Source of the DNA: Prorocentrum cordatum
Lineage: Eukaryota > Sar > Dinophyceae > Prorocentrales > Prorocentraceae
DNA: 64,000 nt
Assembly: GCA_963575745.1 (NCBI GenBank)
Contig: CAUYUJ010013914.1
Location: 271,548-335,547 of the forward strand
Reading direction: 5' to 3'
The position numbers and the translations under genes are program-made. This document shows positions 26,337-58,273 of the stretch, in pieces. The notes under the pieces are model-generated. The model searched no databases. It was not told where the DNA came from and saw only the letters and a list, made by a program, of their open reading frames with translations. Position 1 is the first letter of the stretch, and each line of letters begins with the position of its first letter.

Positions 26337-26499
26337 CTCAGGTCGGGCATGTCCTCCTACAGGCGGATTTTAGAGGAAAATTTAAAAATACCACAGAAAT
26401 CGACCCAAAAGCCTAAACTAGTAAAACAAAAAAATCGTCCCCAGACTATGTTTTGAATATGTTTGGATATTCCTCCTGTAGAGGGACACGCCCGACTTA
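26337..26499 (+). mobile_element. MITE-A copy 4
   Basis: Starts CTCAGGTCGGGC and ends GCCCGACTTA, inside a perfect 8-bp duplication CCCTTATG (26,329-26,336 and 26,500-26,507). Confidence 0.92.
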
Positions 26500-29279: not shown

Positions 29280-29432
29280 TTAGGTCGGGCATGTTCCCCT
29301 ACAGGCGGATGTTGGACGATTTGTTTTTTTTATGAGACACCAAAATGGTCAAGAATAGAAGAACAAATCGTCCCCAGACTATTTTTGATTATGTCTAAAG
29401 ATTCCTCCTGTAAATGGATTGGCCCGACTTAA
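29280..29432 (+). mobile_element. MITE-A copy 5
   Basis: TTAGGTCGGGC and GCCCGACTTAA ends with typical interior. No target duplication is visible. Confidence 0.88.
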
Positions 29433-29818: not shown

Positions 29819-30223
29819 CTGAGTATCGTTTAACCGATCCCCATCCCCACCAGCGGGGGCTGGGCCCCACTGGCCGATTTACCCCCCTAGATGGGGAGAT
29901 TGGCAGGCCGTATCCTTCGGGTTTCGAGGGGTGTATCCCCAACTGGGGGTGTAATTTGGTGGGGGTCTCGAAGGTTGGAGGCCTGGAAATGGGCACCAAC
30001 ACCAACACGGGGGTTTGCCTCCACAGGGGGAAGATGATCCTAGATTTCGGCGTTGGTGGTAATATTTCGGCCACCTTGGAAGCCAGAATATTACCACCAT
30101 CACCGATAACGAGATCTTCTTCCCTCGGTGGAGGCACACCGCCGATATTAGTGTTGGTGTCAACCTTTAGGCCTGCGAGAAGGGGATGAGCATGGGGATG
30201 GGGATCGGTTCAACGATACTGAG
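29819..30223. mobile_element. TIR-E element, long form
   Basis: The left end CTGAGTATCGTTTAACCGAT then CCCCATCCCCA is repeated inverted at the right end (GGGGATGGGGATCGGTT then CAACGATACTGAG), about 32 bp of TIR. An inner inverted repeat GGTGGTAATATT / AATATTACCACC sits at 30,050-30,100. A shorter sibling forms intron 4 of the methyltransferase gene (49,684-49,866), sharing CCGATCCC, GGGCCCCACTGGCCGAT and CCCCCCTAGATGGGG-like blocks. Confidence 0.88.
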
Positions 30224-30559
30224 TCTGAGGACCAGGACGGAGACGAACCGGGAGAAGCTCCGCGCGCGACACGGGCGGCAGGCTCCAGAGCCTCGCCCGC
30301 AACGCCCTCGGTAACCGCCATGCGGGCGGGGTGGAGGGCTCCCCAAGGCCTTACAGTCATCGGCCTGACCGAAGGAACGATAAAGAAGGAACGAAGCCTA
30401 TCTTTTATCCCAAGGAATGGCGCATAGGGAACGATACATAACAAATAGCGCATAAGGAACTGTAAACAACGCATGCAAGCCTAAGGAACGACCGAGCCCC
30501 TTTTGAAAAGCAAGTGTTCCTTATTCAAGCCGCTCACTGTATGTTGCTCCCGTCGTACT
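30224..30559. other. No gene recognised
   Basis: Contains several GGAACGATA/AAGGAACG phrases between 30,370 and 30,490 that look like a weak tandem repeat. Confidence 0.45.
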
Positions 30560-30730
30560 CACGGACCACATCCCGGGAATGATTTCCGGCACCCGGAAAA
30601 GGGTCGAAAGGGTGTCGAACCAGTGTCGGACGAGTGTCTCCCAGGGCCCGGCACGTGAAAATCCCCATGGGTTTCGGTATTCGTCTGTTCTTTCTGGTGG
30701 CCAAGTCTACAGTAGGTTGGAACATCATAA
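30560..30730 (+). repeat. Interspersed repeat R, copy 2
   Basis: Shares CCACATCCCGGGAATGATTT, CACCCGGAAAAGGGTCGAAA and GTGTCGGACGAGTGTCTCCC with copy 1. Confidence 0.85.
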
Positions 30731-30916
30731 CTTGACACAGGCCGTGCTGTTCTCGCGAAGCGGTAGGCATCCAGCCAGCGCGCGCCGCTGAGGAAGCGGA
30801 GCTCGGAGGTCCACTCCAGGCCGGTGTGCCTCCGAAAGTCCTCTCGGGGCAGGGCGAGGCGAGGCAGTAGGGGAACGAACCATGACATAACCATAAAGAC
30901 TCGGAAACTATCTATT

Positions 30917-31215
30917 ATTTGTCGTCCCAAATCCGCCTGTAGGGGGGCTTGCCCGACCTAAATATAGGAAAACAAAGAATGACATGAGCATAACAACTCG
31001 GAGGTCCGCGCGGATGTCTCGGATCGGCGCTGGAGCCCCCCAGCGGCGCCTCCGGCGCCGCCCCTGGCGCGCGGAGCGCGCCAGGGAGGGGGGTCCAGTG
31101 CCGATCCGGGGAATCGGTGCGGACCTCCGAGTTTTTCTTATGATCATGTCATTCTTTGTTTTCCTAGACTTAGGTCGGGCAAGTCCCCCTACAGGCGGAT
31201 GTGGGACGAACAATA
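30917..31215. repeat. Near-perfect 300-bp palindrome of MITE-A and FB3 arms
   Basis: The left arm (MITE-A end reversed, TAGGAAAACAAAG, FB3 unit) is mirrored in the right arm (FB3 unit reversed, CTTTGTTTTCCTAG, MITE-A end forward). Arms pair over roughly 150 bp with few mismatches, around a GC-rich centre at about 31,060-31,085. A truncated FB3 start also lies just left, at 30,868-30,895. Confidence 0.88.
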
Positions 31216-31326
31216 GAAATAGACAAAAATACACCACAATGCTAAAAAATACTCAACGGATCATCCCCAGACTATGTTTCACACATTTTTGAAGATTCCC
31301 CCTGTAGAGGGACAGGCCCGACTTAA
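31170..31326 (+). mobile_element. MITE-A copy 6, with 8-bp duplication
   Basis: TTAGGTCGGGC and GCCCGACTTAA ends between perfect TCCTAGAC repeats (31,162-31,169 and 31,327-31,334). Its right 48 bp overlap the last coding codons and stop of the minus-strand methyltransferase gene. Confidence 0.92.
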
Positions 31327-31626
31327 TCCTAGACAACGGCAACTCAAGTCGGGGTCCAAACGCACCAATAGTTTCCGAACTGTGCCCAGCCGTCGCGAGC
31401 CCCGGGACCCCCCCGGAAGGCCAGCTGCCATGGTCCCAACTCTTGCCCCACGCTGGTCCTCGGCGCTGGCCACCAGGCAGAACACCCCGCGCCAGTCTGC
31501 CCGCTGCTGCCACAGGAGCCTGCCGAGCTGCCCATGGGCCTCGGCGGCCTCGGACTGGCCCGCGCTCCTGCGGCTGTCCCTGGCGCCGGACCAGGCGCCG
31601 TAAGGCACGTTGGTCAGGATCATGGT
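31279..31626 (-). CDS. Methyltransferase exon 10 (TNVPYG, C-terminus)
   Basis: Acceptor GCCCATCAG. Encodes TMILTNVPYGAWSG, the motif IV with the catalytic-type Asn (N-V-P-Y in place of N-P-P-Y), then HGQLGRLLWQQRADWRGVFC and LVASAEDQ, as in the RlmL fold after motif IV. The last 16 codons including the stop lie in MITE-A. A further small intron before the C-terminal KLLVRLDP stretch cannot be excluded. Confidence 0.8.
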   Translation of the reverse strand, partial: TMILTNVPYGAWSGARDSRRSAGQSEAAEAHGQLGRLLWQQRADWRGVFCLVASAEDQRGARVGTMAAGLPGGSRGSRRLGTVRKLLVRLDPDLSCRCLGLSRACPSTGGIFKNV

Positions 31627-34224
31627 CTGATGGGCCAATTGTCCACCACCACTGCCATAGGCAGGAGAGGAGGGAGGAGGAGGAGGAGGAGGAGGAGGAG
31701 GAGGACCTTCCCATCCTCCCTTCTCCCCCGTCGTATACCTATGGTAGCGGTGGTGGAATATTGGCCCATCAATGGTGGGTCTCCCGGCCAGTTCACTGGC
31801 CACCTTTCTGCAGGAGGGACCTGTACAACACTGCAATGCCCGCCCTGGGCCATCCTGGGCCCTGCGATGCTTTCAACTAGTTATCCTGAGACCAGGGCGT
31901 CGTGTATTGTTGTTCCTACTGGGCGTTGTTTGCCTGGCGTCGGGCTGCGGGACCATCACATATCTGGCTGGAAAACATGCAGCACAACGATGGGGTTTAG
32001 GGATCGGGTCGTGATGCGTCACGACGCTGCAACTCTTTTACAATGTCGGATCTCAGGGTGGACTCTCCTGGCCAGTCCGGGAGGGCGTGAACACCGTGCC
32101 AGGGCTCAGGATGGCCCTGGCTAGGCACGATGGTGGTGCATAGATGTCTTCTGCGCAACCTTGGTCAGGGAACCCTGTCTGAAATGGACCCTGCAGGGGA
32201 AATCCGAGTCCGCGCCACCATCCGCGATGCGCGCCGGCACCTCGGTGCCGACGTCGCCACAACCGGCGCCCACGCCGGGGTCGTCCGATCGCCACAGCCG
32301 CCGCCTGAAACGGTGGAGGTTCCGGGTGGCCCGGTCAATCTGCTCCTGGCTGCGGTCGGTCCCTTGCAGCGTCAGCGAGCCAGCTGCGGGATGGGGACTC
32401 GGCCGGATGGGTTGGCGGCGCGCACTCAGGGTTGGGGCGAGACGGCGGAACGCCGGGGAAGTGTTCCACGAGGAGGCGGCAGAAGGGCCTTCAACTTCTA
32501 AATATCAAAACCCCTCCCTTCCTCAGGAGCCGTTCTCAGGAGGAGGGTCCCAGAACCGCCTTGCCTTCTTACACAAGGCCGGACCCGCACAAGCCACCCT
32601 CCCTTTCCAGACCTCCGACGTGGCGATGTGTGTTCACGTGATGTGGACCCCCAAGAGGCATATTCAGACCACTTCCAAAGACCGGCGTGTTATTCCGAAT
32701 CAATTTCGGGGATCTTGCGAGCCCGGGCAATCCAAACCCGGGCCAGCCAGGCCTTGCAAAATCCTGAGGAATCCAGCAAGATCCTGCAGGTTCCTGCACC
32801 CAAGCCCAGGTCCGTGCGTCCCTGACCCTGCAGGATCCAGAAAGACCCGGCGCTCTGGTTGCCCCCCGTTTGCATTGACCCCGTCTCTTTCGGGAGCGGC
32901 CAAGAGGGGAGCGTCCAAGAGGGGGGGTGCAAATCATGGCCGGCGGTTTGTGCGCGGCCCTTGGGGGGGGCCAGGGACGCAACGAAATAAGACGAGGCGC
33001 CCTGAAATCTGGGCAAATATCACAGCCCCCGCCATGATGTCCACCCCCCCTTAGTCATCACCCCCCTGTCTGCCGCCCCCGAGTCTCTTGAACCCCGACA
33101 TTTTTTGATCGCACTGGAGCCAGGCAAGGGCCCCCGGGGGCCGGAGAGGATAACAAAACTCCGCCGCGATCTTTCCACAAGGGCTCCCAACTTCGCGCTT
33201 CGCGCTGCGCGAAGCGCGAAGTGCGAATAACTTCGCGCTCTCGCGCCGCCTCCCAAGGGAGAAGGGGAGGATGAGGAGGAATCGGAGCCGAACCGCGAAG
33301 CGCGAATAACTTCGCGCCCTCGAGGGCGCCCTTGTTTCCACGCAGCGGGGAGGCCTCCGGACTGCGCGCCGCCAGGTGGAGCTCAGCAGGCCGCCGTAGG
33401 CCTCCTCCTCCTCGCCGTGGCAGGGGAACCGGGTGAACGGATACCTCCACGGCGCGAGACTCTGCACGGCAAGCTCGCGTCGTGACGGCCCTGGCGTTGG
33501 CTCCTGACAGCGCAGGGATCGCTCAACCCGGAACGACCAGCAGATGGTCGACCGCCACGTCGTTCCACAGTGGCCGATTCTGGGCCACTGGCGGCGTTCC
33601 GCGTCGAGCGCCCGGGCAGGGGTCGCCGTCGCGTCGACGCACAAGGCGAGCCTATCGTGTGCAGACGCCTTGCGACGAGTTCTCCTGGTGCAGTCAAGGA
33701 GTAGATGGCGGAGTAGAATGTCAGTGGCTCTCAGTGGTGATTTACACACAGCCATCCCCCCCTGCAGCCCAGGAGAAATCCTTCGGGAGGAATCTGTGCG
33801 TATTGGCATGAGTTGCATGTTCGATTCGACACTCGCTGAGCAAAACCAATATCGGCCGCTGTCGGGCAGGCGACCTCCTCTCGGATTGACCGAGGCCACG
33901 GCGACATTGACAACGGGTACGTTTAAAAACGGTAAGGGACTGCTGTCTGTCTTTGTCTCCGTTCCGTGCCCGTACAATGTGTATACATATCTACATAATA
34001 CAAATCATGCTGGAACTGAAAGGCCCGGGCGGTCTTATACAATCCCTGGGTGCGAGGCTGAAGTGGGGGTCTGCGGTGCAGCGTCGGATTTTCATTTCTC
34101 TGTAAGAACTATTGCCAATCCCCCCTTCTGGTGGTGTCTTTAATGAAGTGCCCCTCCCAGGACAAGCGCTATGTTTTTACAAGGGAGAGCATTGCGCCTC
34201 CGACTTGGTTGCTGGCCCCCGAAG

Positions 34225-34255
<31 letters not shown>

Positions 34256-43200: not shown

Positions 43201-46200
43201 GAGAGAGGGAGAGCGCGCGCAGCAAAGAGAGAGAGAGAGAGAGAGAGAAAGGATGAGAGAAGGAAGGAGAGAGGAGAGAGAGAGAGAGAGAGAGAGAAAA
43301 AAAGAGAAAGAGAGAGAAGCAAAAAAAGAAACAGAAACAACGACAAGCAACAATACATAGGGAGACATACATAACGAAACCAAAACCGTTAGAGGGAGAG
43401 CGAGAGAGAGATGGCGGAACCTCCGCCCGCGGTCGCCCGGCGGCTGCCCGAGGACGGCGGCCAGCGCCTCGAGGACTAGGGTGCCGCTGCCGCAGAACGG
43501 GTCCCAAAGCACCAGCTCCTCCGGAAGAGGGAACCCGCAAGAGCCTGTTTTTTAAGACTCTGGCAAGTTTACTTGCATGGACGGGGGGGGGGCTGAGCCT
43601 GAAGCAAGCCGCAAACGACTGGCACGTTCGGGGGGGCGCGGAAATCACGCAAGTCGAAAGGCACTTGCACGCTAGTATTCGCTTGAAGAGGGGCGGGGGG
43701 GGGGGGGGGGGGGGCGAACGCCATGCAAGTAAACTTGCCTGAGTCGAAAAAAAACAGGCTCCAACTGGCGACTTTAGAGGACAGAGAACTGTGCACATGC
43801 ACCGACTCTGGCCAGGCCCATCCTGAGCCCAGGATCGGTGCATGCGCCCTCCTGCCTTGGCCAGGGAGGCATATGCACCGATCCTGGGTCAAGGACGGGC
43901 CTCGCCAGGATCGGTGCATGTGTGTAGTTCTCTTCGCCCGAGACGGGGGGACGCTAATTCACGCCGCTTCTAAAAAGCGGCGTGAATTGGCGAGGAACCA
44001 CCCAGGAAGTCGACCGCCTACCAGGAAGCCCCGAAAAGGGCTCCGGAGGCTCCAGAGAGGGCGCCCCAAAAGCGAGCCCCAAGAGCGCCCCGAGAGGGCC
44101 CTCAGAGAGCCCCAGAGGAGGAGGAGGAGGAGGAGGAGGAGGAGGAGGAGGAGGAGGAGGAGAAGAAGAAACGGAGGAGGAGGAGCGGAAGATGAGGAGG
44201 AGGAGGAGGAGGAGTAGGAGGAGGATGAGGAGGAGGAAGAGGACAGGAGGGACCACGAGGCCTCACAGATGGCTTCTTCGCCACGTGCGCTCGGGCCGCT
44301 TGCGTAGCGTATCGCCCACGGCGGCACCCGCGACACGCCGTGCCCTGCGAGCGAGCGGCGTGGCGCTCCGCTTCGAGGGGGGGGAGGCTGGGAGAGGCTC
44401 GGGACATCGATCCTCCCAACAAATCCTCCTCCTCCTCCTCCTCTTCCTCTTTCTCCTTTTCCTCCTTCTCCTTCTCCTCCTCCTCCTCCTCCTCCTCCTC
44501 CTTCTGTTCTTCTTCCTCCTCCTCCTCCTCCTCCTCCTCCTCCTCCTCCTCCTCCTGTGGACTGGGACTTGGTCCGCGCGTCGTGCCGAGGCGTGGTGGG
44601 CCAAAGCAGGCGGCGCGACACGCTAAGCCAAAATTGCCGACAGTGATATGTGTATATATACATCGACATTTCTATATATGTATACATATGTAGATATGTG
44701 CATACATAGATACATATATAGATCTGGATACACGTGTACACACATATGCTTATATCTAAATACACATCGACATATAATCACGTATACGAAGATACATCTA
44801 CCTACATACGGCAAGTCCGTGTCGTGACGGTCCGGGCGCCGGTTTCTGAGACTGCGGGGTACGTTCGACCTTGAAGAAAAGCGGCCATCTGCTGGCAGGC
44901 CACTTCCTCATTTGATGCGCCTACGTGTTGGAGAAGCGCGCTGACCGCTCCGATCGGCGCTGGACCCCCTGACCCACGGAGCGAGGGGTGCTCGAAGCGG
45001 GGCGCGTCGAGACAAGGGCAGCTCAACATTAGTCCCCGGACCTCTCCCGGGGTCCAAACGCACCAAGCTCTGGAGCTGCGCCCAGGCGTGGGGACAGGGG
45101 TGCTCTCCGAGGAACAACTATCGCTGTCTCAACTCGCTCTCCTGTGATGCTGGGCGCTGACCGCCAGGAAGAATACCCCGCGCCAATCCGTCGTCTGACG
45201 TGCACCGCCGATCCAAGAGATCTGCGCGGACCTCCGAAAAATGACCAGAGTCAGAGAGCTGAACTGTGGTTTATTGAGCCTCGGTGCGTATCTTAAGTGG
45301 GATTCCGTGACCAGGATTCTCGTTGCCGAAGTCTCATTTCTAAACAAATGTTGTTGTTGATCAGCACCCGCCGGTGCCCAGTGTATTGGTCCCAGCCTCG
45401 TTGGCCCTCGTCTTGAAGAGACAGCGCCTCGCGTAACTTACTCACTCCTTCCACCTTCCCCCTCCTTCCATCCCTGTTGCTGCAATCAGCATGTCAACTA
45501 CTTCGGTCACCCTAACACGTTTTCGTGGCCCAATAGGAAGCACCACCAGAAACCCCAGTGGCCAAGTCCACATGCGGCCGCCCCACCCATCTCGGCACAC
45601 CCATTACACGATACGTGGCCCCATCCGAAAGCTCCAGTGACGGTGTCCCCATGCGGCCGCCCCACCCATTCTGGCACACCCCGCACACCGTTCGTGGTCA
45701 CATAGGAAGCTCCACCGCATGCCACAGTGGCCACATCCACGTGCGGCCGCCCCACCCACTTGGGCACACCCTTCACGCGCTTCGTGGCCACAGAGGGGAC
45801 TCCACAGACGGCCCCAGGGGCCATGCCCACTTGCGGCCGCCCCACCCGTTTCGGAACATCCCACAAAGGTTACACGGTTCGTGGCCCCGTGGGGAGCTCC
45901 TCCGAAGGCCCCGAGTGCCAAGTCCATGCGGCCGCCCCACCCGTCGGCACACCCTTCGCACGACTCGTGGCTCCATAGGGAGCTCCACAGAACGCCCCAA
46001 TGGCGGTGCCGAGATGCGGCCACCCCGCCAATGTCGGCACACCCCTCACACGCTTCGTGGCCACATAGGGAGCCCCACGGAAGGCCCAAGCGGCGAAGTC
46101 CATATGCGGCCGCCCCACCCATTTCGGCACACCCCTCACGCACTTCGTGGCCACATAGGAAGCTCCACCGACGGCCCCAATGGCCATGTCTACGCGCGGC

Positions 46201-49200
46201 CGCCCCAACATTTTCGGAACACCCCTCACACGCTCCGTGGCTCCATCGCGAGCTCCAGTGAAGGCCCCAAAGGCCATGTCCACATGCGGCCGCCTCAGCA
46301 ATTCCGACACACCCCTCACACACTCCGTGCCCCGAGAGAGAGCTTCACCGAAGGCTCTAGTTGCTGCGGTGTCCGCATGCGGCCGCCCCACCTATTTCGG
46401 CACACCCCTCACACGCTTTGTGGCCGCATAGGGAGCTCCACGGAAGGCCCCAGAGGCAGTGCCCACATGCGGCCGCCCAGCCCACGCTGGCGCACCCCAT
46501 CACACGTTTCGGCACCGCATCGGGGGTTCCACCAGATGCACCAGCGTGGCCATGTTTCTTCGTGGCCTCATAAGGAGCGCCACCGAATGCCCCAGTGGCG
46601 GCATCTACATGCGGCCGCCCACCCATTCTGGCACACCTCTCACACGCCTCGCGGCCCCATTAGGATCTCCACCACATGCCCTACTGGCGGTGTCCACATG
46701 CGGCCGCCCAGCCCCATTTCGTCACACCCCTCACACGTTTCGTGCCCACATGGGGAGCTCCACCGAATGCCCCAGCGGCGGTGTCCACATGCGGCCGCCC
46801 CACCCATTTCGGCACATCCCTCACGCGTTTCGTGTGCTCCGCTGGAAGCGACAATGGCGGCGTCCATGGGCGGCCGCCCCGCCACATCTCGGCACGTTTC
46901 GGCTCGCCGCCGATCTGGTCCACCAGTGCAGGGGTACTGCGCAGTTGCGCACTTGCTCTGCCTCGAGCCTCCCCGCCGTGCAGGGCCGCGGTCAGCCGCC
47001 GCAGCAGCGGAGACGTCATCACGCAGGCCGCCGCCAGGGACTCGCGCAGGGGGGCCTCGCCGCCCGCCTTCCGGTAGCCCCGCATGTGCAGGGGCCCGGA
47101 GCCGTCAACGCTCACCTCGGGCGGGAGCCGACGGCGAAGGGGGCAGCAGTGTCTTCGCTCGGACTTATATGTGGTTCCCCTCGTGCGAAAGGGCCACATC
47201 CCAAAAATGATTCCGAGCACCCAGAAACGTGTCGAAATAATATCGAAAGAATATCGCCTCTCAGGGCCCGTCACGTCAAAACCCTCCAGTTTTGGGATTC
47301 TCTTGGTGTGATCGAAATTCTTTCTTGTGATCAAGGCTGAAATAGGTGGGCACATCTTAAACTTAAACGCTCGTTTTGGCGGCGCGCAGAAGGGTAGGGG
47401 ATGGGGGAAGGCTTCTCAAGAGGAGGCTGCTTCTTAGAGGGCGACGGAATGTCATGCGTAGACAGGGTCACTCCTTCGAAGAAACAACATTTGTTCACTT
47501 GGGCGACAATCAAAAACGGGTATGACGCGGGATGGCGTGCCGACCTTACGCCAAGGATTACGCAGCCCGCCGACGCGGCACGCCACATTGGAGACGAGGG
47601 CGCTTACGCGAACCTTACGTGGGCAGCTTACGCGCGAATGTCGGCGCAGACGACCTGTTTCATTGCGTCGCTCACTGAGACGCTCGTTTTGGAGACCTTC
47701 CTGGGGCCACTCGCTCCACTCATGCGTCGATGCTGCGTCGAACGCCCATCGACCTGAGTCGAACTTGAGTCGAACCTGAGCCGAGCTGGAGTTGAACTAG
47801 AGCCGAACTAGATTCGAACGAGAGTTGAACAGATCCGTCCAGCGCCCCACAGGAAGGTCCCCCGAACGAGCATCTCACTTTACTGTGCGGCCGTGGTCAT
47901 TATCAACCACGAAGCTGGAGTAGACTCGAGATGCAGTGCGGGACTGCAGCGCGAAAGCTTCGTGAACACGTGCATGCTAAACCTGCGCTGCCCAGAGACA
48001 GGCTGCTACTCCAAATCCCTTATTAGCCGTCCCCCGGGTCCGGATTTTTAAGGCGCCCTTTTTGAAACTGGGGGGGGTCCGGTTTATCAGGGCGCTTTGT
48101 GTGGATTGGAGCTTAGGTGGTCCGGATTATTAAAGCGCCCCGTCAAAGAGGGGGGTCCGGAATATTAGGTCGCATTTGGACGGGGTTCCGGATTTTTAGC
48201 GGGAGTCGATTCATACGGGATTTGGAGTACGCCGCAGCTTGCGCGGGCTTACGCGGGCCGCCAGCGCGGCACGCCTCCTTGGAAATAAGGCCGCTTCCGC
48301 GCGGCCTTACTTACGCAGGACGATCGATTTTCCTCCTGAGGTGAAAATGGCCATGAGGACTTCGCGAGACAACGTCGGCGCCGCCGAACGGACGGCGACC
48401 GGACGAGCTGTGTGAAGCAACCGGGGGGAGAGGGATGTATGTATTCATGTTCAATGGAGCCCGCTCGCGCGGGGAGTTGATGGGAGTGCGCGAGACGACG
48501 CAGGGCCCACCGTGGAAAGTTAATTACCGAACCCCCCTCCCCCATAGAATCTTAACACGGGCGGTTTGCGGGGTCCGCGGATCCGATTTCTTCCGGTCCC
48601 CTGTTTTACTCGAATAATTTAAATTTGCACAAAGTGGAAATCGGATCCGCCGTGCAAAATAAGACCGGACACGGATCTGGGAACATCCGAATGGGATCCG
48701 CGCGGACTGAAATCGGATCCACCGAAACAAACACCGAAACCATATTTGGATCCGCGCGAACTTCATGGGATCCGACGGCAATTATCTCATACGGGTCTGC
48801 TCAAGACTTCACACCGTCGTTCCCGGCCCAAGAGGAAAAACCTTTCGTCCTGGGGATGTATGCGCGGGCAGCTCACGCGCCCAGCGTCGGCGAGGACGAC
48901 CCCGTTCTCTTCTTGCCATCGCTCGGACGTCCATTCCCAGTGCATCTTCTGGCTTCTGGAGCTTTTCTCGGCGTTTCGATACTGGGCGGAAGGCGGGGGA
49001 AGGGGGGTCTGGCTCCTGACCTGTGCTTAGTGCGAATGTTTGCAGGAGGGCATCCATCATGGGCGAGGCTCCTCCCGCTCGAAGCAGGCGCAAAGAACAG
49101 CCAAGATCTACCCCATGGGGGGGGAGGAGGCGAGGGCCCGCGCCGACTGGGGGATCGACGAGGATAAGGATGAGGATGAGGATGAGGATGAGCATGAGGA

Positions 49201-52110
49201 GGAGGAGGAGGAGGAGAAGGTAAAGAAGACGGAGACGACGGAGGGGGAGGAGGAGGACGAGGAGGAAAAGGAGGAGGAGGAGGAGGACACGGAGACGGAG
49301 GGGGAGGAGGAGGAGGAGGAGGAGGAGGAGGAGGAGGAGGAGGAGAAGGAGGAGGAGGAGGAGGAGGAGGGGAGAGGAGAAGGAGAAGAGTAAGGAGGAG
49401 GAGGAGGAGGAGGAGGAGGAGGAAGAGCTCTTCTTCACGAGCTGATCCAAGATGCGCTCCTCGGTGCTTCTCGCCGAAGGAAAACCCGCAGACGCCCGAG
49501 CGGTGCCACGTCTTCCCCGGCGCGCCCGCCTGGCACTCGTCGTGCCGCAGGCGCAGCCGGACGGTGGTCGCCGCGGCCTGCCGCCGGGGCTGCGCGCGGG
49601 CCCCGCTGGCGCCAGCCGCGGCGCCCTCAAATCCCAGATCTCGGGCAGGGCCACCTGCGCTTGCCGCAGCGCCGCCTGTGCACCGTTTAGCCGATCCCTA
49701 TCCCCGGCAGCATGGCCTGGGCCCCACTGGCCGATGTACCCCCCTGGATGGGGATGCAGGCTGTTCCGATCGGGTTCTGAGAGGCAGATCCCCAACTGAG
49801 GTGGTGAGACGGTGGGGCCCGAGACGTCGAGGGGGATGGGGCTAGGGATCGGTTCAACGATACCGACCACCGGCGCTGGCCGCAGCGCCGCCGGAGCCCG
49901 CGTCGCTCGCAGGGCCGAGAGCGGCCGCGCCAGCGCCCCGCGCCGCTGGGGCGGCGGCGGCGGCGGCCGCGGCCTCCGCGAGCAGCGCACGGCGTCGATG
50001 CTCCACCGCGTCCAGCGCGCGCTCACGCACCATGCGCTCGTGGTAGAGGCGGGACCGGTCGGAGGAGACCACGATGTCCGCCTCCACTGGCTCCTGCGGA
50101 AAGAAGATGCGTAATCTAATGGAGCCCGCGCAGCCGCGAATAAAAGTGAGGGGGCGGCGGGGTCGTCGGGAGGATGCCCGAGGCTTCGAGCAAGCCCGCC
50201 GCAGGCGCCTATGTGGTCCACATTACACAACGAGCCCGCCGAACGCGCCGAATTCTAGTCAAAGCAGTGTGGGTGGGCCTCGGGCGCCTGGTGGGCACCC
50301 CGTGCGCCTGGGTGGGGTTGCCGAGGTCTCGCTCGGCGGGCGGTCGTGAGCGCCTCGCGGGCGCCCCGTGCGCTGGCGCTGCCGAGGTGTTTCGCCCGGT
50401 GGGCGCCCGTGGGCTCGTGGGCGACGCGTGGCTCGTGGGCGCCCCGTGCGCGGGGTGGGTCTGCCGAGGTTCCGCGTGGTGGCCGCCGGTGAAAGCCCAA
50501 CGGGCTGGCTGCACAGCTTGCACCATGGTGGTTGCACCGCATAGCTCGCACCACGTAGCGTCCGACGAGCAGCTTGCAACACGCATGGGTTGGACCCTCA
50601 CGCCGCGTCGCCGGCACCGCGCAGCCCGCACACGGACGGCTGCGACCACACAACTTGCACCGCACAGCCCGCGCAGCATTGCCGGCACACGCATCAGTGC
50701 CAGACTGGGGTCAACGATGGCGACCGCATGCTTCTACATGCTTGTTCGTCTTCGATCCTGACGGGCCCCCGCCGCCGCCTCCGCTTGCGCGGCCCGCGCG
50801 GGGGCGATCGGCAGGAAGTCCTCCCACGGCAGGCGCCGCAAGCCCGCGTCCAGCGCCGCCTTGGTGGGCGCGTGGAACGGGTCCCCGACCAGCACCCGCG
50901 CCGACTCCGCGACGCGGCTTTCCATCACGGCGCGCCAGAGCGACTCGCCCGTGCCTCGGGGGGGAAGGAGCAGTTTCTGTTGATCGGCGGCGCGTTTGGG
51001 TCCAGCAAGCGGTCATGCAAACGGCGGGACGCATCTTTTGAGAATTGAGGCGCAGGGGCGCATTCGGGCGAGGGGCGAGGAGAAAGAAGGCCACGGGCCA
51101 GCGGAGGAGGAAGCACGTACCAGTCGTTTTCGCAGTTTTGGGGCCTCCTGGGGCGGGGCCTTCATCACCATAGCTGCAGTCGCTTCAGACTCCTGGTGAG
51201 GAAACGCCTCCGCAGAAGTCTGTCGGCGTACGGTGGTTGGCGGTGCGCACACAAGGGGGTGGCGCGCGGGGGGCTAAAGCCTGAGCGGACAGGGAGATGA
51301 AGGGGAGGCAGGGGGGCAGTGCCCTGCCAGCTTCCGAGCGGCCCAAGCCTCTGGCCTCGGGGCCTTCCGGGACGACCCCGCTCCTTCCTAGAGGCGCCCC
51401 CGCCCCTCCCCCGCCTCCTCGAAAAAGGCTGGGGGCGCCCTCTTCGCCGCACCACCCTCTCAGAGATCCGATGCCCTGACTTCTCGTCTATGCCACCCCA
51501 CCTGCCGATTCCAGGACGAGCCTTCCCTCCCGCGTCGTTCCCTGGCGATGACGGCCCGGCCCCCCCAAAGGCCGGGCACGCCGCAAAAACCGCCCTCGCC
51601 GATTCTCCTGGCGTGGCGCGCGCTGCCGCTGGAGGTCTGGGCCGATGTCTGCGCTGCGAATTGTTCCTCGACTGCCCCGGAGCCCGGGCCCCCAGAAACC
51701 GACCAACACGGCGAAACCACGGCCCGCGCCGCTCCCTCCTGCCGCGCCGGAGGTCTGGGCTGGGCGCGCGCTGCCGCTTCTCTTGGCCTGGCACGGACGG
51801 GTCCTGAGTGGGGCGGGTGGTTAGTGGGGGGGGCCTACAGTCGGGGCTGATTGGAATGGACACGCGAGAGGACACAAGACCCATCCGAGGGCCACGTTGT
51901 CATAGGGGTGTAAGAAGGCACGGGCCGCGCAGGTCAGGACACGAGGGTACACTTAGTTTGGCAAATCGACCTCCTGACCCGTCTCAACTGTACATGGGGG
52001 GAAGAATAACCGAGCACAGACGATAATAGTACCCCAGGAATCAGAAAGTTCGGGGTTCCGGCGGGGATAATAACATATGATCCCAGGGATGAGGATGATG
52101 ATGAGGATGC

Positions 52111-52157
<47 letters not shown>

Positions 52158-55100: not shown

Positions 55101-58100
55101 GCGCCCCGGAATGTATTGCACGCCCTAAATGTTCTGCAACCCCACAAATCTATTGCACCACCCCCTTGTCGCTTGACCCCTTTTCGGGTCAACCCGAGCC
55201 TCGCTCCGCACATTTGTTCGCCGCAACCCGCCCGCGCGCCTGCCGCGCGCGCCTGCATTAGGCTCGCGAGCGTGCCGAAGGGAAGTGGCCCTGCAGGACT
55301 CGGGCGTCGGAGAGAAGCGCAGGCACGGAAAACTGGGCCGAGATCTTGAGCCAAAACGGTTACTAGAGGGCAGCAAATCCACCCCATAATAACCACCCCG
55401 ACACGCGAGGCCGTTTAGCAAACGCACCCCAAAAATATGATCAAAAATGGCCAGGCTGCTTAGTAAACGCAGGAGGCCGTGTAGTAAACGCATGTTGTCT
55501 GGTCCAGGTGGTGTTTTCCTCCCTAGACAAAATGGTTACGGAATGCGGTCCTGGGAACTTGGAGGCCCGCATCGCCCGGAGAGAACCTCCGAGAACGACC
55601 CGAACCCCAAAACCGCGCGGTGACCCTGAATCCCCAGTGAATCACCACGCGGCGTGGTCACAACAACGTTCGACGGGGGCCCGAGGCTCTGTGGGTTATC
55701 TTGGGGTCATGTTGGGCTCTTGGGCCGACTTAAGGCCATCTTTGGAAGCATCAGGGGGTGTCGTGGCGCTATATTGGAGACCTTGTGGGCCTTCTAGGGA
55801 GAACGGAAGCACAGACAGGGAGAGCTTCAATTCCACACAACAAACACATGCGAATCATTGTTTTTGGCCACCTCCGGGGCCCTCTTTGTTGTTTTTTTGC
55901 GGGGGGGGGGGTCTGAGAGAGCTCCTGGTCCGTCGAGCCCCTGGTCCGTTGAAAGCCTTCGGAGGCCGTCATGGGGCCTTTCTCGGCCGTCTCAAATGTC
56001 ACCGAAGACGGCTACGAGGGCGAATGGCCCACAGGGGAACAATGCATGTAATTATCCGATGGCGCCGACGGTTGATTTCCTCGGCGAAGCTCCCCGACGA
56101 ATGCGTGCAACGCTGCAATGCCCAGCCCAAGGCTACTCGCCCCTATCGTCACCTCCGGCGTCTCTGGACGGGGAGAAAAGGGGGACCATGACCAAGGCTG
56201 AACGCGGAAACGCCGTTTCGATCTTGGTCACCGTCGATCTCGGTCAGGGCCCATTCGTGGATCATCATCACGAATTGGGGACGGCCGACATTGAGGACCA
56301 TGCACAAGACGGGCATCGACACAATCATAGGGGAACCAAAAAGTATCGACACCGCTACTCCCTGGACCTCTCTTGGGGTGCTCTCTGACTACAACTTCGA
56401 TGCGAATCTAGACGCGGCAGCGAGGGCCTCCCAGGAGGCCCGACGGGGCGAAAACCGAAGTAATGGTAGCGGTATGGATACCACTTTTCTTCTCCTGAGA
56501 CTCGGCGACGGCCGACATGTACCATGTGATATGTACGGCAGAACACAGAGAGACACGACGTACAAATAGGGGGGCGTGCTGAGAGAGAGAGAGAGAGAGA
56601 GAAAACAAAAAAACACGTTCTCTTTCCTTTACGGAGGCTCGCGCGCGCCCGCGGCCAGCGCGCCAAGTAACTCAAGGGCCCTGCGAGCCATAGCAGCGGC
56701 AGGGCAAAGAAGGTAAGAGCGAGGCGCAGGAAGAAGCGAGGCTGAAATGGGAATGGCAACCGCAAACCACGACCAAAATCGACATCGACTGACCATGACC
56801 GGGTACCGTTCCCTCCTCTGAGACTCGGCGACGGCCGACATGGAACATGACCAAGATTGACGGGCTTGTTATCCACCACCACCACCACCATAAGTTGGAT
56901 GGGGGAAGGTGGAGGATGAAGAGGAGGAGGAAGAGGAGAAGGCGGAGGAGGAGAAAGGGGGTGGAGGAGGAGGAGAAAGAGGATGAGGAGGAAGAGGAGG
57001 AGGAGGAGGTGCAGGAGGAGGAGGAGGACGAGGAGGAGGAGGGGTGGGAGGAGGAGGAGAGAGGAAGAAGAGGAGGAGGAGGAGGAGGAGGAATTCCCCT
57101 CGACGCTTGGTGCCCCCGCGCCGTGCACCATGACGCCGCCAGGCGCAGCCTCCAGCCGCCCTGGTACGCCCAGCACCTGCAACTCCCGCTCGAGGCACCT
57201 CTCCTGCGGGCTCCAAACGTATATACTGCCACCACCTCCATTCCCCTCCTCCTCCTCCTCCTTCTCCTTCTACTTCTCCTTCTCCTCCTCCTCTTCCTCC
57301 CCCCCCTCCTTGGTCTTCTCCTCGTCCTCCTGCTCCTGCTCCTCCTCCTCCTCCTCCTCCTCCTCCTTCTCCTTCTACTTCTCCTTCTCCTCCTCCTCTT
57401 CCTCCTCCCCCTCCTTAGTCTCCTCCTCGTCCTCCTGCTCCTGCTCCTGCTCCTGCTCCTCCTCGGTCTCCTCCTCCTCCTCCTCCTCCTTTCGAGCCTT
57501 TCGAACGCGGCCCAATGGTCTCCGCGAGACCGTGGCCGTGGTCCTCCTCCTCCTCCTACTCCTCCTTCCCTCCCGCTCGAGGCACTTCTCCTGCGGACCC
57601 CAAGAGTATGCACCCCCAGACATGCTCGCGTCTCAAAAAACAGAGCGGAAGTTGCTTGGGCGTTTTCGGCATCGGGGAGCCCTCGCCAGGCCTCGGGGCC
57701 GTCTCCGAGTAGGTGGGGTCGAAGACTGGCGCTGCATCGCCAATGCATCGCCAATGCATCGGCGATGCATCGGCAATGCATCGGAGATGCATCGGCGACG
57801 TCGGCGGTGCATCGGCGACATCGGCGCCAGGAAACATGGTCTCTACATCGAGCCGCATCGTGGATGCATCGGCGATGCGGCGCGACATGATCGCGCCCAG
57901 ACATGATCGAGTCGTAAAAAGATCAGGACGAGAGGTCTTTGGCCGGTTTCGGCCTCGGGGGGCCTCCCAAGGCCTCGGGGCCGTCAAAAATGACTCGGGA
58001 TGAAAACCGGTCCCGGGGAAAGGGTCGGGATCTCCAGCGACCCTGCATTGCAAACATCAGGCCGTCGCATGTCTGGGCACACACCGCCACCACCTCCCTT

Positions 58101-58273
58101 CCCCCTCCCTCCTCCGCCCTCCTCATCCCCTCCTCTCTCCTGGGAGAGGGGAGGGGGCGATAGGGAGATGGTGGTGGTGCACATGTTCTTGGGCCCCGTG
58201 TCTCCAGCCCCGGAGCGCTCACCACCAGCACGCGCCGCAGCCGCGGCCCGGACGCCGCCGCCGCGGCCAGCAT
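31279..58273 (-). CDS. RlmL-type (UPF0020/THUMP) RNA methyltransferase, ten exons
   Basis: Ten minus-strand exons (58273-58205, 57203-57122, 50954-50779, 50093-49871, 49654-49530, 47115-46977, 43544-43421, 33444-33395, 32383-32160, 31626-31279) join into 1,560 nt, an uninterrupted 520-codon frame with all phases compatible. The order of motifs follows bacterial RlmL N-terminal half: APGLE..L..EL..LG...GGV, a SRVAE segment, W..FLP, SRLYH (THUMP side), VSVDGSG...RGYR...APLRESLAAA, SAM motif DPFCGSGT, FPCHG, GTDRS...A..NL, HFRQGSL, and TNVPYG with the catalytic-type Asn. The family transfers methyl from SAM to guanine N2 in rRNA; substrate here is inferred only. The length suits a single methyltransferase without the second RlmK half. 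Upstream regulatory sites cannot be seen. The first exon, exon 10 end and GA donor of intron 1 are the least certain parts. Confidence 0.82.
31669..31705. repeat. Short (GAG)n array in intron 9
   Basis: Twelve or so GAG units inside the 533-nt intron 9. Confidence 0.9.
32160..32383 (-). CDS. Methyltransferase exon 9 (GTDRS)
   Basis: Acceptor CCCATCCCGCAG. Encodes GSLTLQGTDRSQEQIDRATR then NLHRF, equivalent to the family's GSD....I..A..NA block that positions SAM, and near its end VHFRQGSLTK, equivalent to the strand and Asp-loop before NPPY. GT donor ACCAAG|GTTGCG, phase 0. Confidence 0.82.
32700..32890. repeat. GGATCCTGCA-rich interspersed repeat, copy 2
   Basis: Matches 3,480-3,690 block by block (CCAGCCAGGCCTTGCA, ATCCTGCAGG, CCCCGTTTGCATTGACC). 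It lies in intron 8. Confidence 0.75.
33190..33222. repeat. Perfect 33-nt palindrome
   Basis: Arms ACTTCGCGCTTCGCGC and GCGCGAAGCGCGAAGT around a single T. Related CTTCGCG/CGCGAAG words follow at 33,225-33,320. Confidence 0.9.
33395..33444 (-). CDS. Methyltransferase exon 8 (YPFTRFPCHG)
   Basis: A 50-nt exon after a 10-kb intron. Acceptor CCGTGGAG|GTATCC. Joined to exon 7 it reads GDRGRRYPFTRFPCHGEEEE, matching the 'R..F..w..H' segment after the SAM loop in RlmL. The likely donor TACG|GCGGCC resembles those of exons 2 and 6. Confidence 0.7.
33445..34200. other. Intron 7 start, no gene recognised
   Basis: Ordinary sequence with no motif that I can assign. Confidence 0.45.
34222..34440 (+). 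repeat. CAA-cassette repeat, copy 1
   Basis: (CAA)n with ACATCAAC variants followed by ATCATTTGAAGACTG, TCGCTCTCACTGGCACGCGT and CCTCGATACC. The same order recurs at 34,970-35,110 and 39,780-39,905. Confidence 0.8.
34441..34856. repeat. 137-bp tandem repeat, three units
   Basis: Units start with GTCTCGAGCG at 34,447, 34,584 and 34,722 and share GCCGTTCCTGAGTCCGGGGG and GAGGAAGTATCGAGC-like blocks. Confidence 0.88.
34970..35110 (+). repeat. CAA-cassette repeat, copy 2
   Basis: (CAACAG)n, ATCATTTTAAGACAGGTCGC, TCTGCGCGCGTGCC and CCCCTCGATACCCGCC. Confidence 0.8.
35373..35780 (-). pseudogene. Gypsy-like integrase fragment
   Basis: A 135-codon minus-strand frame in intron 7. LAGDFVGPHKPKTPSGNKYM followed by FTCVGVWGGRYWAVPAP matches the first half of a retroviral-type integrase core: catalytic Asp in GDFVGP, then GN.Y.......RY..A.P. 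The second catalytic Asp is not preserved after the SPQFWG stretch and the frame becomes unlike integrase, so it is broken. The pattern is closer to gypsy than to the copia integrase at 9 kb. Confidence 0.6.
36038..36640. repeat. 73-bp tandem repeat, eight units
   Basis: Units contain CATGGGATTTGCCACATTTC, GGTGGCACCCCTCACGCAGA and GGTCAGGGTCCAAAA. Core positions are 36,082, 36,155, 36,246, 36,318, 36,391, 36,464, 36,539 and 36,612. The third interval is longer because an 18-bp piece (AAGCAGATCGGCGGAGTC) is duplicated. Confidence 0.92.
36698..39062 (-). other. Unrecognised coding-like DNA, decayed
   Basis: Several minus-strand frames have protein-like composition, for example 38,110-37,487 with WIELNKEPCAVKPGREVHL, and 39,062-38,556 with HLMRAGLSAQRESCDFMPVS. 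They lie upstream of the gypsy-like integrase scrap on the same strand, so they may be remains of the same element, but no gag, protease or RT motif is visible. Frames break often. Confidence 0.3.
39255..39760. repeat. CCAAGAGGCCC minisatellite, third block
   Basis: Degenerate CCAAGA(T/C)GGCCC units like those around the copia element, including the GGGGGGGGGCAGGAATTAAG interruption near 39,615 that parallels 4,735-4,760. Confidence 0.8.
39780..39905 (+). repeat. CAA-cassette repeat, copy 3
   Basis: ACAACGACAACAACAATCAG, TTTAAGACTGATCGCCC, CTGCACGCGTGCCACC and CCTCGATGCCCGCC. Confidence 0.8.
40150..40390. repeat. Short tandem units related to the 137-bp repeat
   Basis: Repeated TTGTGAGGAAGT and GCGAGAACGCGATT phrases at intervals near 50 bp, ending AACCGTTGTTCTTAGTGCTG, similar to the end of the 34.4-34.9 kb array. 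Confidence 0.65.
40999..41068. repeat. (GAG)n followed by (GGACT)n pentamer
   Basis: GAG runs to about 41,031, then seven GGACT units (41,032-41,068), an unusual period-5 tract in this window of period-3 repeats. Confidence 0.92.
41543..42900 (-). pseudogene. Zinc-finger and downstream frames, LINE-like
   Basis: Minus strand, intron 7. From about 42,690 to 42,380 one frame reads two Cys/His-type fingers: RRDLMNHLRRVHGLHNLCRQ and CINCKQIFGSRSNAARHLQG, then CPLCQYEGSNLLQLCDHLCG. Such C2H2 pairs are common in dinoflagellate LINE polyproteins. A shifted frame follows (FKQPGKRGAE, Gly-rich) and then an intact 178-codon frame (42,079-41,543) starting MMSRELADLSSAVFLKYEVL with a long helical region. 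I do not recognise that second protein. At least two frameshifts separate the parts. Confidence 0.5.
43145..43410. repeat. (GA)n microsatellite with interruptions
   Basis: GAGAGAGGGAGA-type tract, pure GA in places. It starts 11 nt beyond the donor of exon 7, at the beginning of intron 7. Confidence 0.95.
43421..43544 (-). CDS. Methyltransferase exon 7 (SAM motif DPFCGSGT)
   Basis: Encodes GFPLPEELVLWDPFCGSGTL then VLEALAAVLG. DPFCGSGT is the glycine-rich SAM-binding loop and the following Glu is the usual acidic ligand. The 3' splice site (AAACAG|GCTC) lies in the terminal repeat of MITE-T. GT donor CGGAG|GTTCCG, phase 2. Confidence 0.88.
43541..43761. mobile_element. MITE-T, 221-bp TIR element
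   Basis: Terminal inverted repeats of about 42 bp: left GAGCCTGTTTTTTAAGACTC, TGGCAAGTTTACTTGCATGG; right mirrors this and ends AAAACAGGCTC. The TIR contains its own palindrome GCAAGTTTACTTGC. The interior has a long poly-G run (43,695-43,715). On the gene's strand its end supplies the CAG acceptor of intron 6. Confidence 0.9.
43956..43988. repeat. Perfect hairpin, 14-bp stem
   Basis: AATTCACGCCGCTT, loop CTAAA, AAGCGGCGTGAATT. Just left of it (43,795-43,920) GATCGGTGCATG occurs in both orientations, so the whole stretch is inverted-repeat rich. Confidence 0.9.
44117..44245. repeat. (GAG)n array in intron 6
   Basis: GAG with AAG interruptions. Confidence 0.95.
44423..44556. repeat. (CTC)n array in intron 6
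   Basis: CTC/CTT tract, opposite in strand to the GAG array 180 bp away, so the pair forms a long imperfect inverted repeat. Confidence 0.95.
44640..44812. repeat. AT-rich TACATA/TATGTA island
   Basis: Degenerate TATG/ATAC tetranucleotides (ATACATATGTAGATATGTGC and similar), a sharp low-GC island in GC-rich DNA. Confidence 0.9.
44948..45243 (-). pseudogene. Second copy of the last methyltransferase exon
   Basis: Minus-strand 45,195-45,160 (TTGGCGCGGGGTATTCTTCC, CTGGCGGTCAGCGCC) and 45,090-45,050 (CTGGGCGCAGCTCC, TTGGTGCGTTTGGACCCCGG) match 31,480-31,440 and 31,385-31,350 of exon 10. The peptide DWRGVFFLAVSA parallels DWRGVFCLVASA. A stop follows at 45,129, so it is a dead fragment. FB3-type words lie on both sides in opposite orientation (GATCGGCGCTGGACCCCC at 44,953; TCTGCGCGGACCTCCGA at 45,227). 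Confidence 0.7.
45540..46900. repeat. 90-bp tandem array, about 16 units
   Basis: Units contain CATGCGGCCGCCCCACCCAT, TTCGGCACACCCCTCACACG, CTTCGTGGCCACATAGGGAG and CTCCACCGAAGGCCCCAG. GCGGCCGC start points are spaced mostly 88-95 bp, often exactly 90. Because the period is divisible by three, frames stay open on both strands for hundreds of codons. The array fills the start of intron 6, ending about 80 bp from exon 6. Confidence 0.93.
46977..47115 (-). CDS. Methyltransferase exon 6 (RGYR...APLRESLAAA)
   Basis: Acceptor CCGCCCGAG. Encodes VSVDGSGPLHMRGYRKAGGE followed by APLRESLAAACVM, the most diagnostic segment of the UPF0020 family ahead of the SAM site. Ends CTGCACG before a GC donor, phase 1. 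Confidence 0.88.
47190..47360 (+). repeat. Interspersed repeat R, copy 3
   Basis: CCACATCCCAAAAATGATTC, CACCCAGAAACGTGTCGAAA and CGAAATTCTTTCTTGTGATC match copies 1 and 2. It sits in intron 5, about 75 bp upstream of exon 6. Confidence 0.8.
47378..47470 (+). mobile_element. FB1 foldback element, left half
   Basis: GGCGGCGCGCAGAAGGGTAG, GGGGAAGGCTTCTCAAGAGG and CTTCTTAGAGGGCG match the left half of FB1. The right half is missing. Confidence 0.75.
47471..48019. other. Intron 5 sequence, weak GAACTTGAGTC repeats
   Basis: Between 47,750 and 47,830 TCGAACCTGAG/TTGAACTAGAG phrases recur every 10-12 bp. Otherwise nothing is recognised. Confidence 0.5.
48030..48200. repeat. Tandem GGTCCGGATTTTTAAGGCGC units
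   Basis: Four to five imperfect units of about 40-55 bp, each with GTCCGGAWTWTTA and GCGCC, between 48,030 and 48,200. Confidence 0.75.
48201..48540. other. Intron 5 sequence, nothing recognised
   Basis: No motif or repeat of note. Confidence 0.45.
48565..48785. repeat. Cluster of GGATCCG words with a 14-bp inverted pair
   Basis: GCGGATCCGATTTC near 48,578 is mirrored by GAAATCGGATCCGC near 48,647. Four further GGATCC words follow to 48,775. Confidence 0.75.
49150..49425. repeat. (GAG)n array in intron 5
   Basis: GAG with GATGAG and ACGGAG interruptions, about 100 bp from the donor of exon 5. Confidence 0.95.
49530..49654 (-). CDS. Methyltransferase exon 5 (VRLRLRHDECQ)
   Basis: Starts after AAGCGCAG|GTGG in phase 1 and ends GACGAGTGCCAG before a GC donor. 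The last part, AAATTVRLRLRHDECQ, is the strand that precedes the SLD/VSVD motif in RlmL. The upstream part is Ala/Gly/Arg-rich and poorly constrained. Confidence 0.75.
49651..49892 (-). other. Intron 4: TIR-E element between 26-bp direct repeats
   Basis: Two 26-bp direct repeats, 49,651-49,676 and 49,867-49,892, differ at two positions. Between them lies a TIR-E element (49,684-49,866) with CGTTTAGCCGATCCCTATCC on one side and GGGATCGGTTCAACGATACC on the other. Donor (CCG|GTGG) and acceptor (CAG|GTGG) fall at the same point of each repeat, so the 216-nt intron equals one repeat period. Confidence 0.8.
49871..50093 (-). CDS. Methyltransferase exon 4 (THUMP part, SRLYH)
   Basis: Acceptor TCTTCTTTCCGCAG with a clear pyrimidine tract. 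Encodes EPVEADIVVSSDRSRLYHER, then an Arg/Ala-rich helix (VRERALDAVEHRRRALLAE) and an Ala-rich low-complexity tail. SRLYH is the family's conserved step before the catalytic domain. GT donor inside a 26-bp direct repeat, phase 1. Confidence 0.85.
50270..50490. repeat. Imperfect tandem repeat GTGGGCGCCCCGTGCG
   Basis: Three to four units with GGGCGCCCCGTGCG and CTGCCGAGGT, about 60-90 bp apart, inside intron 3. Confidence 0.65.
50779..50954 (-). CDS. Methyltransferase exon 3 (SRVAE, W..FLP)
   Basis: Acceptor CCCCCCCGAG|GCACGG. Encodes TGESLWRAVMESRVAESARV and later AGLRRLPWEDFLP, equivalents of the 'l..SR.A.rv' and 'inW...f' segments of RlmL. GC donor at GAG|GCGGCG, phase 0. Confidence 0.82.
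50955..52080. other. Intron 2, first part, no gene recognised
   Basis: GC-rich sequence with open frames on both strands but no domain match. Confidence 0.45.
52085..52160. repeat. (ATG)n array
   Basis: GATGATGATG run, the only pure GAT-class trinucleotide tract in the window. Confidence 0.95.
52203..52390. repeat. 62-bp tandem repeat, three units
   Basis: GACTCGAG at 52,224, 52,286 and 52,348. Each unit holds a CTCGAGAGATCTCGAG-type palindrome and TTGCCAGCGGGCGCTCGGCA. It abuts the downstream end of retrocopy 2. Confidence 0.9.
52374..55344 (-). pseudogene. Retrocopy 2 of a spliced-leader mRNA, decayed
   Basis: Minus-strand coding-like DNA behind a leader copy at 55,364-55,345, inside intron 2. 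The reading begins near 55,340, is interrupted by TIR-G (54,958-55,198), and continues with LQEPDTLEHSQLKANIREVK and VEMHLAMEQDWIQEAKDEP (to 54,626). After an in-frame TGA at 54,623 it reads YECLYCVSEACTRFREQNSD and VVVGMGPWSYSIAPARG. Later frames include ETRMELKRTSCRKNRWASKF, CRTCGAARRTELAKEHAVMNC (a Cys/His cluster) and finally CSKCLPCKGGSKGCRACVGE before a stop at 52,374. Several frameshifts and stops break it. Parent protein not recognised; a retroelement gag is an alternative. Confidence 0.5.
54958..55198. mobile_element. TIR-G element, complete
   Basis: About 50-bp terminal inverted repeats: left GGGTGGCCCAAGAAGGGGTC, GGGGGTGGTGCAATAGATTT; right AAATCTATTGCACCACCCCC, GACCCCTTTTCGGGTCAACC. 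AT-rich interior with repeated ATTGCA words. It interrupts retrocopy 2. Confidence 0.9.
55345..55364 (-). other. Spliced-leader relic of retrocopy 2
   Basis: On the minus strand it ends CCGTTTTGGCTCAAG and matches the dinoflagellate leader at all but a few positions. It lies at the 5' edge of retrocopy 2 on the same strand. Confidence 0.7.
55400..55500. repeat. GGCCGTTTAGTAAACGCA repeats
   Basis: Three copies of a TTAGTAAACGCA-type phrase (near 55,408, 55,458 and 55,485). Confidence 0.7.
55527..55542 (-). other. Second spliced-leader-like sequence
   Basis: Minus strand TCCGTAACCATTTTG, one change from the first 15 nt of the leader; the 3' part has decayed. It lies 180 bp upstream of the first relic. 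Confidence 0.55.
55550..56890. other. Intron 2, last part; no gene recognised
   Basis: Mixed sequence. The phrase GAGACTCGGCGACGGCCGAC then ATG occurs twice (56,497 and 56,820). The stretch 56,415-56,476 (GCGAGGGCCTCCCAGGAGGC, TAATGGTAGCGGT) recurs at 25,463-25,522. A GA microsatellite lies at 56,580-56,603. Confidence 0.5.
56893..57095. repeat. (GAG)n array beside exon 2
   Basis: GAG with AAG and GTG interruptions, ending about 30 bp from exon 2. Confidence 0.95.
57122..57203 (-). CDS. Methyltransferase exon 2 (EL..LG...GGV)
   Basis: Follows acceptor GAGCCCGCAG. Encodes ERCLERELQVLGVPGRLEAA then PGGVMVH, which matches the RlmL N-terminal pattern of GLE..L..EL..LG....GGV. It ends CAC G before a GC donor (G|GCGCGG), phase 1, fitting exon 3. 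It lies between a GAG array and a CTC array. Confidence 0.75.
57238..57500. repeat. (CTC)n array in intron 1
   Basis: CTC/CTT tract made of two near-identical halves of about 120 bp (57,262-57,345 and 57,362-57,445 share TTCTCCTTCTACTTCTCCTT). Confidence 0.93.
57571..57622 (-). repeat. Partial duplicate of the exon 2 acceptor and start
   Basis: Minus strand GGGGTCCGCAGGAGAAGTGC, CTCGAGCGGGAG repeats the exon 2 boundary (GGAGCCCGCAGGAGAGGTGC, CTCGAGCGGGAG) and then runs into a CTC/GAG tract. It could act as a decoy splice acceptor. Confidence 0.75.
57728..57880. repeat. GCATCGGCGAT minisatellite
   Basis: About ten units of 9-12 bp (GCATCGCCAAT, GCATCGGCGAT, GCATCGGAGAT) within intron 1. Confidence 0.88.
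58205..58273 (-). CDS. Methyltransferase exon 1 (start codon, APGL)
   Basis: ATG at 58,273 opens 23 codons: Ala-rich then RLRRVLVVSAPGL. The donor side reads GGGGCTG|GAGACA, a GA donor, joined in phase 0 to exon 2 (GAGAGG...), which completes the family's APGLE..L..EL start. The frame is also open upstream of this ATG, so a longer N-terminus such as a targeting peptide is possible. Confidence 0.6.

Follow-up and report, generated by a model that had tools for sequence, protein, structure and literature searches.

Does a repeat-rich stretch of the genome of the marine dinoflagellate Prorocentrum cordatum carry a single gene spread over some 27 kb, and, if so, what does it encode and where does it end? 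The stretch examined, referred to throughout as the window, comprises 64,000 nucleotides (nt) of contig CAUYUJ010013914.1 (GenBank assembly GCA_963575745.1, forward-strand positions 271,548 to 335,547), in which the original prediction placed a complete RlmL-type methyltransferase gene of 10 exons and 520 codons, ending at 31279. Its exons were not listed, so it could not be compared exon by exon with the model given here. We find that the locus very probably holds a nuclear, intron-rich minus-strand gene for an RlmL-type RNA methyltransferase, running from 58273 to about 30.6 kb in 12 exons, or in 11 if a 150-nt hairpin element close to its 3′ end is retained (Table 1). The gene is real, its architecture is ordinary for the species and half of it had been annotated already; what is new is a corrected 3′ part and one oddity, the hairpin.

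For placement of the gene, a draft of the spliced sequence was compared with 118 proteins, the best of which was a deposited 437-residue sequence (P0001) described as 'unnamed protein product [Prorocentrum cordatum]'. P0001 could be placed on nine minus-strand exons with 437 of 437 residues identical; because of this residue-for-residue placement, the window is taken to hold the P0001 locus or an identical copy of it. Nineteen other homologues (P0002–P0020) were used as tblastn queries against the window at E ≤ 1e-3, the threshold that applies to the counts in Table 1. As a control, the same 19 queries were reversed, which gave 10 matches from P0013, P0015 and P0016 only, all 10 overlapping triplet-repeat arrays. 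The P0001 placement and the homologue matches bear out the claim that collinear exons from the start codon at 58273, with its APGLE motif, to TNVPYG join in frame. Standard ORF calling had also been expected to miss the gene; it is not hidden, since exons 1–9 stand in the deposited, unnamed model.

The reading frame is kept throughout the 12-exon model, all exons being free of stops and frameshifts. It extends for 490 codons through exon 11, and exon 12 adds up to 93 before the first in-frame stop is reached. Donors of introns 1 to 11 are GA, GC, GA, GT, GC, GC, GT, GC, GT, (AC) and GA, in that order; AG is the acceptor for all, extended to AGG in 9 of the 11. Splicing would proceed through the GT/GC/GA–AG signals usual in P. 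cordatum, for which the genome paper gives 24.7% GT, 51.4% GC and 23.8% GA donors (99.9% in sum) and 79.7% AGG acceptors (PMC10666404). The gene spans about 27.7 kb, and its introns range from 150 to 9,976 nt (mean 2,360). In the same source, the average gene of the species measures 24,462 bp and has 11.7 exons, and the average intron measures 4,709 bp (PMC10666404); the scatter over 27 kb, which the original prediction had singled out, is therefore the species norm and unremarkable. The window is rich in triplet repeats and tandem arrays and has a G+C content of 54–69% per 2-kb block, the published genome value being 59.7% (PMC10666404).

Table 1. Features of the methyltransferase locus, in window coordinates; homologue counts refer to tblastn with P0002–P0020
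Feature	Positions	Strand	Content and support
Exon 1	58205..58273	-	start codon 58273, ...VSAPGL, APGLE motif; exact in P0001; GA-AG junction
Exon 2	57122..57203	-	ERCLERELQVLGVPGRLEAAPGGVMVHG; in P0001; 18/19 homologues
Exon 3	50758..50954	-	TGESLWRAVMESRVAES...; in P0001; 19/19 homologues
Exon 4	49871..50093	-	EPVEADIVVSSDRSRLYHERM..., Ala/Gly-rich tail; in P0001; 8/19 homologues
Intron 4	49676..49870	-	GT-AG, 22-nt inverted ends; fold z only −2.0
Exon 5	49530..49675	-	...VRLRLRHDECQ; in P0001; 0/19 homologues, weak matches otherwise
Exon 6	46969..47115	-	VSVDGSGPLHMRGYRKAGGEAPLRESLAAAC...; in P0001; 19/19 homologues
Exon 7	43421..43518	-	ELVLWDPFCGSGTLVLEALAAVLGQPPGDRGR, S-adenosylmethionine (SAM)-binding motif; in P0001; 19/19 homologues
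Exon 8	33370..33444	-	YPFTRFPCHGEEEEAYGGLLSSTW; in P0001; 0/19 homologues, weak matches otherwise
Exon 9	32160..32397	-	PHPAAGSLTLQGTDRSQEQIDRATRN...GSLTK; in P0001; 18/19 homologues
Exon 10 (proposed, 27 nt)	31777..31803	-	VASELAGRP; homologue fit and GT-AG intron 9
Hairpin element (150 nt)	31627..31776	-	inverted ends, ACCAT direct repeat; intron 10 or in-frame insert
Exon 11	31459..31626	-	TMILTNVPYGAWSG..., catalytic motif IV; 17/19 homologues, best E 2.7e-17
Exon 12	30559..30840	-	DFRRHTGLEWTSELRFLSGARWLD..., C-terminal part; 16/19 homologues, best tblastn E 1.6e-9; to first in-frame stop 30559-30561

The protein belongs by its profile matches to the UPF0020/RlmL family, as originally proposed. 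A profile search of the joined translation, on which that proposal had been made to depend, found PF01170 (UPF0020 methyltransferase) at 44.7 bits and PF22020 (RlmL_1st, the RlmL ferredoxin-like domain) at 34.0 bits, above the respective cut-offs of 22.3 and 27. By sequence search the RlmL structures 3k0b and 3v97 were matched, and the exon 6 peptide alone returned E. coli RlmL (E 0.00036) and three related structures from the PDB set. RlmL-type structures likewise lead the fold comparison for the predicted structure of a close homologue, P0003, with a match that covers the THUMP region. Over its full length P0003 agrees in domain order and predicted fold with RlmL (which forms the N-terminal half of E. 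coli RlmKL/YcbY; 3v8v, 3v97) and with the Gram-positive RlmL-only proteins (3ldg, 3ldu, 3k0b), and the HxRGYR and DPxCGSGT motifs are held in common, the latter as DPFCGSGT in exon 7. The P. cordatum protein differs from RlmL in an Ala/Gly-rich insert in exon 4 and in motif IV, (S/T)N-x-P-(Y/F/W), which reads TNVPYG (exon 11, codons from 31614), whereas TNPPY is found in 79 of the 118 homologues and in most bacterial relatives; in addition, the gene is split by introns. A scan of the 20 closest homologues found motif IV in 13, all with a residue other than proline in the second place and mostly TNVP (site here 31603-31626), so that this change in the catalytic motif appears common to the closest-homologue group.

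RlmL methylates N2 of G2445 in the large-subunit (23S-type) rRNA. By analogy, an N-terminal ferredoxin-like and THUMP-like part of the P. cordatum enzyme would bind RNA, followed by a Rossmann methyltransferase in which DPFCGSGT would bind SAM and TNVPYG would serve as catalytic motif IV, and the reaction would be N2 methylation of a guanine in large-subunit rRNA. An organellar rRNA target is a guess; an N-terminal presequence pattern, too narrow for the purpose, matched 4 of 20 proteins.

In its 3′ part the gene differs from the original prediction as well as from the deposited model. P0001 reads 36 nt past exon 9 into intron 9 (VAQKTSMHHHRA) to a stop at 32121-32123 and lacks the TNVPYG exon (exon 11) as well as the C-terminal exon (exon 12); the deposited gene model is evidently wrong at its 3′ end and stops too early. 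Upstream of exon 11, 12 of the 14 homologues aligned carry a G-(R/K)-P triplet immediately ahead of the strand leading into motif IV, and the sequence around intron 9, ACCAAG/GT ... AAAG/GTGGCCAGTGAACTGGCCGGGAGACCC, fits G-(R/K)-P with GT-AG borders. From these two points, the homologue fit and the GT-AG intron, exon 10 is proposed. At 27 nt it is too short for tblastn support; the sole overlapping alignment (1 of 19 homologues) was discounted because it is out of register there. Downstream, seven homologues match the TNVPYG frame at E < 1 with the TNVPYG exon conserved; in six of them the match stops at 31456-31468, in the other at 31435. The final stretch of the frame as first drawn, roughly 50 nt (31330-31279), lies inside a dispersed repeat of about 165 bp. 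A gene end at 31279 was therefore rejected. Homologue matches resume at 30843 and below, so that the gene continues at 30840; as first delimited, its last exon had been given the wrong end and the C-terminal exon missed, and it was thus incomplete. No 13th exon was found in one motif scan of 30768-20000.

The hairpin element (sequence tag GATGGGCCAATNNTCCACCACC) adjoins the catalytic motif. Bases 6 to 149 of 31776-31627 form a single hairpin of −92.6 kcal/mol (z −9.0), with none of 200 shuffles folding as well. Its inverted ends, beginning at the sixth intron base, align over 34 nt with 30 identical, and ACCAT is repeated directly at both junctions. No other copies of the hairpin ends were found within the window. 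Its length is a multiple of three and its frame is open; being in frame and free of stops, it may be either an unusual intron or a translated transposon.

Introns with inverted repeats (introners) are described as enriched in P. cordatum in the genome paper (PMC10666404) and are known from other eukaryotes (PMC7789003, PMC9860276). Inverted ends were scored by an ungapped test of about 60 nt at each intron end. Scores of at least 12 were obtained for 4 of 11 introns (13, 12, 14 and 22 for introns 4, 8, 9 and 10), compared with 17 of 2988 random pseudo-introns; mismatched pairs of real intron ends reached 18 once, through CCT repeats, and otherwise no more than 10. The published introner pattern requires an inverted repeat of 8–20 nt and a direct repeat of 3–5 nt, both within 30 nt of the intron ends. 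The 150-nt element has both repeats and is the sole clear case in the gene, the direct repeats of introns 4 and 8 being 2 and 1 nt and the inverted repeat of intron 9 lying more than 30 nt inside. The introns thus resemble the introners of those reports in their inverted ends above the random level, in the hairpin with its 5-nt direct repeat and in intron 4, of which a second copy with both ends (CGTTGAACCGATCCC...) lies at 29827-30215, just downstream of the gene. They differ in that the strict pattern is clear for the 150-nt element only, and at the boundary favoured by 12 of 14 homologues this element lacks a GT, GC or GA donor. Direct repeats at the junctions were rejected as strong evidence: repeats of at least 4 nt occur at 7 of 11 real junctions but also in 34 of 110 mismatched end pairs.

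Several results weigh against the 12-exon RlmL-type gene and have to be set beside the evidence above. After RWLD the C-terminus is unlike that of the homologues, and the stop of the exon 12 frame falls inside a second dispersed repeat (30682-30540); for both reasons the true end of exon 12, and with it the stop, is uncertain. Of 153 forward tblastn matches, 19 fall outside the exons. Protein searches for transcript fragments of P. cordatum gave none at E ≤ 0.001 among 567 candidates and none at E ≤ 0.1 among 16. None of 7 proteins had a PF02926 (THUMP) match listed at E ≤ 1, and the RlmKL equivalog NF008748 was matched at 111.4 bits, short of its cut-off of 466, for which reason the protein was not filed as RlmKL; the protein has no RlmK half. 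When the hairpin is cut out exactly, as the join fitting 12 of 14 homologues requires, the intron begins with AC, or with another pair from within the repeat, and in no case with GT, GC or GA. An exon chain assembled by chance from motif-like fragments might be argued from exons 1, 5 and 8, which the 19 homologues leave unmatched at the threshold used; all three are present in P0001, and some of seven homologues match them weakly (E 0.034 to 0.82). Seven exons, collinear on a single strand, are each matched by 16 to 19 of the 19 homologues, and together the exact agreement of P0001 over nine exons and the reversed-query control lead us to reject chance assembly, whose probability we consider negligible, much as the original prediction had argued. 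The locus might instead be a decaying copy, a pseudogene or a non-functional allele, as the divergent C-terminus and the transposon-like element beside the catalytic motif would allow. We regard this as very unlikely, given that the model exons contain no stop or frameshift and that exons 2, 3, 6, 7, 11 and 12 are well conserved.

With an RlmL-type gene still preferred, the question narrows to what becomes of the hairpin. If a transposon has inserted here without breaking the frame and is translated along with the gene, exons 10 and 11 would be one exon of 345 nt (31803-31459), with about 50 extra residues before motif IV. This requires no GT, GC or GA donor and no new splicing, and it agrees with the element's length, divisible by three, and with its open frame; a 15-residue insert occurs at the same place in one of 14 aligned homologues (P0012, from Durusdinium trenchii), and in the P0003 model the site would lie at a loop edge before the motif IV strand (helix 372-379, strand 383-389). 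The other 13 homologues have no insert, however, introners are reported to be enriched in this species (PMC10666404), and chance could account for the open frame: when the element was shuffled, 1129 of 5000 versions were likewise open, and one random length in three is divisible by three. On balance, we hold translation of the insert to be a serious possibility, a little short of even chances. Removal as a GA-AG intron at 31783-31652 would keep the frame, create no stop and fit the species rules at both ends; it, too, calls for no new splicing, and codon-adding introners have been described in Aureococcus (PMC9860276). It would leave GGGQLAHQ in place of the RP of the G-(R/K)-P conserved in 12 of 14 homologues, and it would make the whole element's open frame fortuitous; we consider it unlikely. 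Exact excision at the ACCAT repeat, with AC-AG or similar non-canonical ends, would make the element an Amoebophrya-type hairpin introner in a conserved gene of a core free-living dinoflagellate. As in the non-canonical hairpin introns reported from Amoebophrya (PMC7789003), its ends pair through inverted repeats, and a direct repeat spans the exon/intron boundary; splicing there was shown by RNA-seq, whereas excision here is one of three readings. Exact excision we regard as quite unlikely.

Other repeats and mobile-element traces were observed in and around the gene. The dispersed repeat of about 165 bp occurs in six long copies that share one orientation (1568-1735, 14394-14549, 17267-17426, 26337-26499, 29279-29432 and 31165-31330), and the second, of 110-150 bp, in three (47150-47300, before exon 6; 26126-26233; and 30540-30682, covering the point where the exon 12 frame ends). 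Intron 11 contains a 300-nt palindrome (31215-30916, 82% alike), with related pieces at 14992-15077, and intron 6 a tandem array with a unit of about 90 bp (45625-46834). The frame of exon 7 continues into a stretch of intron 7 (42079-42800) that is possibly a retroelement relic, with a C2H2 zinc-finger match of 16.9 bits, under the cut-off of 25.2. Further away, a minus-strand frame at 6677-7501 weakly matches RVT_2, the reverse transcriptase of copia type, at 29.3 bits where the cut-off is 31.6. A scaffold gap of 100 N lies at about 59.8 kb and appears as X in the frames at 59.8-59.9 kb. No tRNA, tmRNA or Rfam matches (at the gathering threshold) were found in the window.

The enzyme itself is of a well-known kind of RNA methyltransferase, and a public gene model that lacked the catalytic motif has been corrected. 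The position of a 27-nt exon beside a hairpin outside the usual donor rules suggests why the deposited model is short. The P. cordatum annotation pipeline is described as having GC and GA donors added (PMC10666404), and GT, GC and GA make up 99.9% of those published, so that introns of an AC-AG type, if real, would largely be missed. Should exact non-canonical excision prove true, other P. cordatum gene models would be expected to be cut short likewise. If the hairpin is spliced, unseen introns of this kind could help to explain the incompleteness of P. cordatum gene models, to which we would tentatively link the published BUSCO recovery of 61.4% (PMC10666404).
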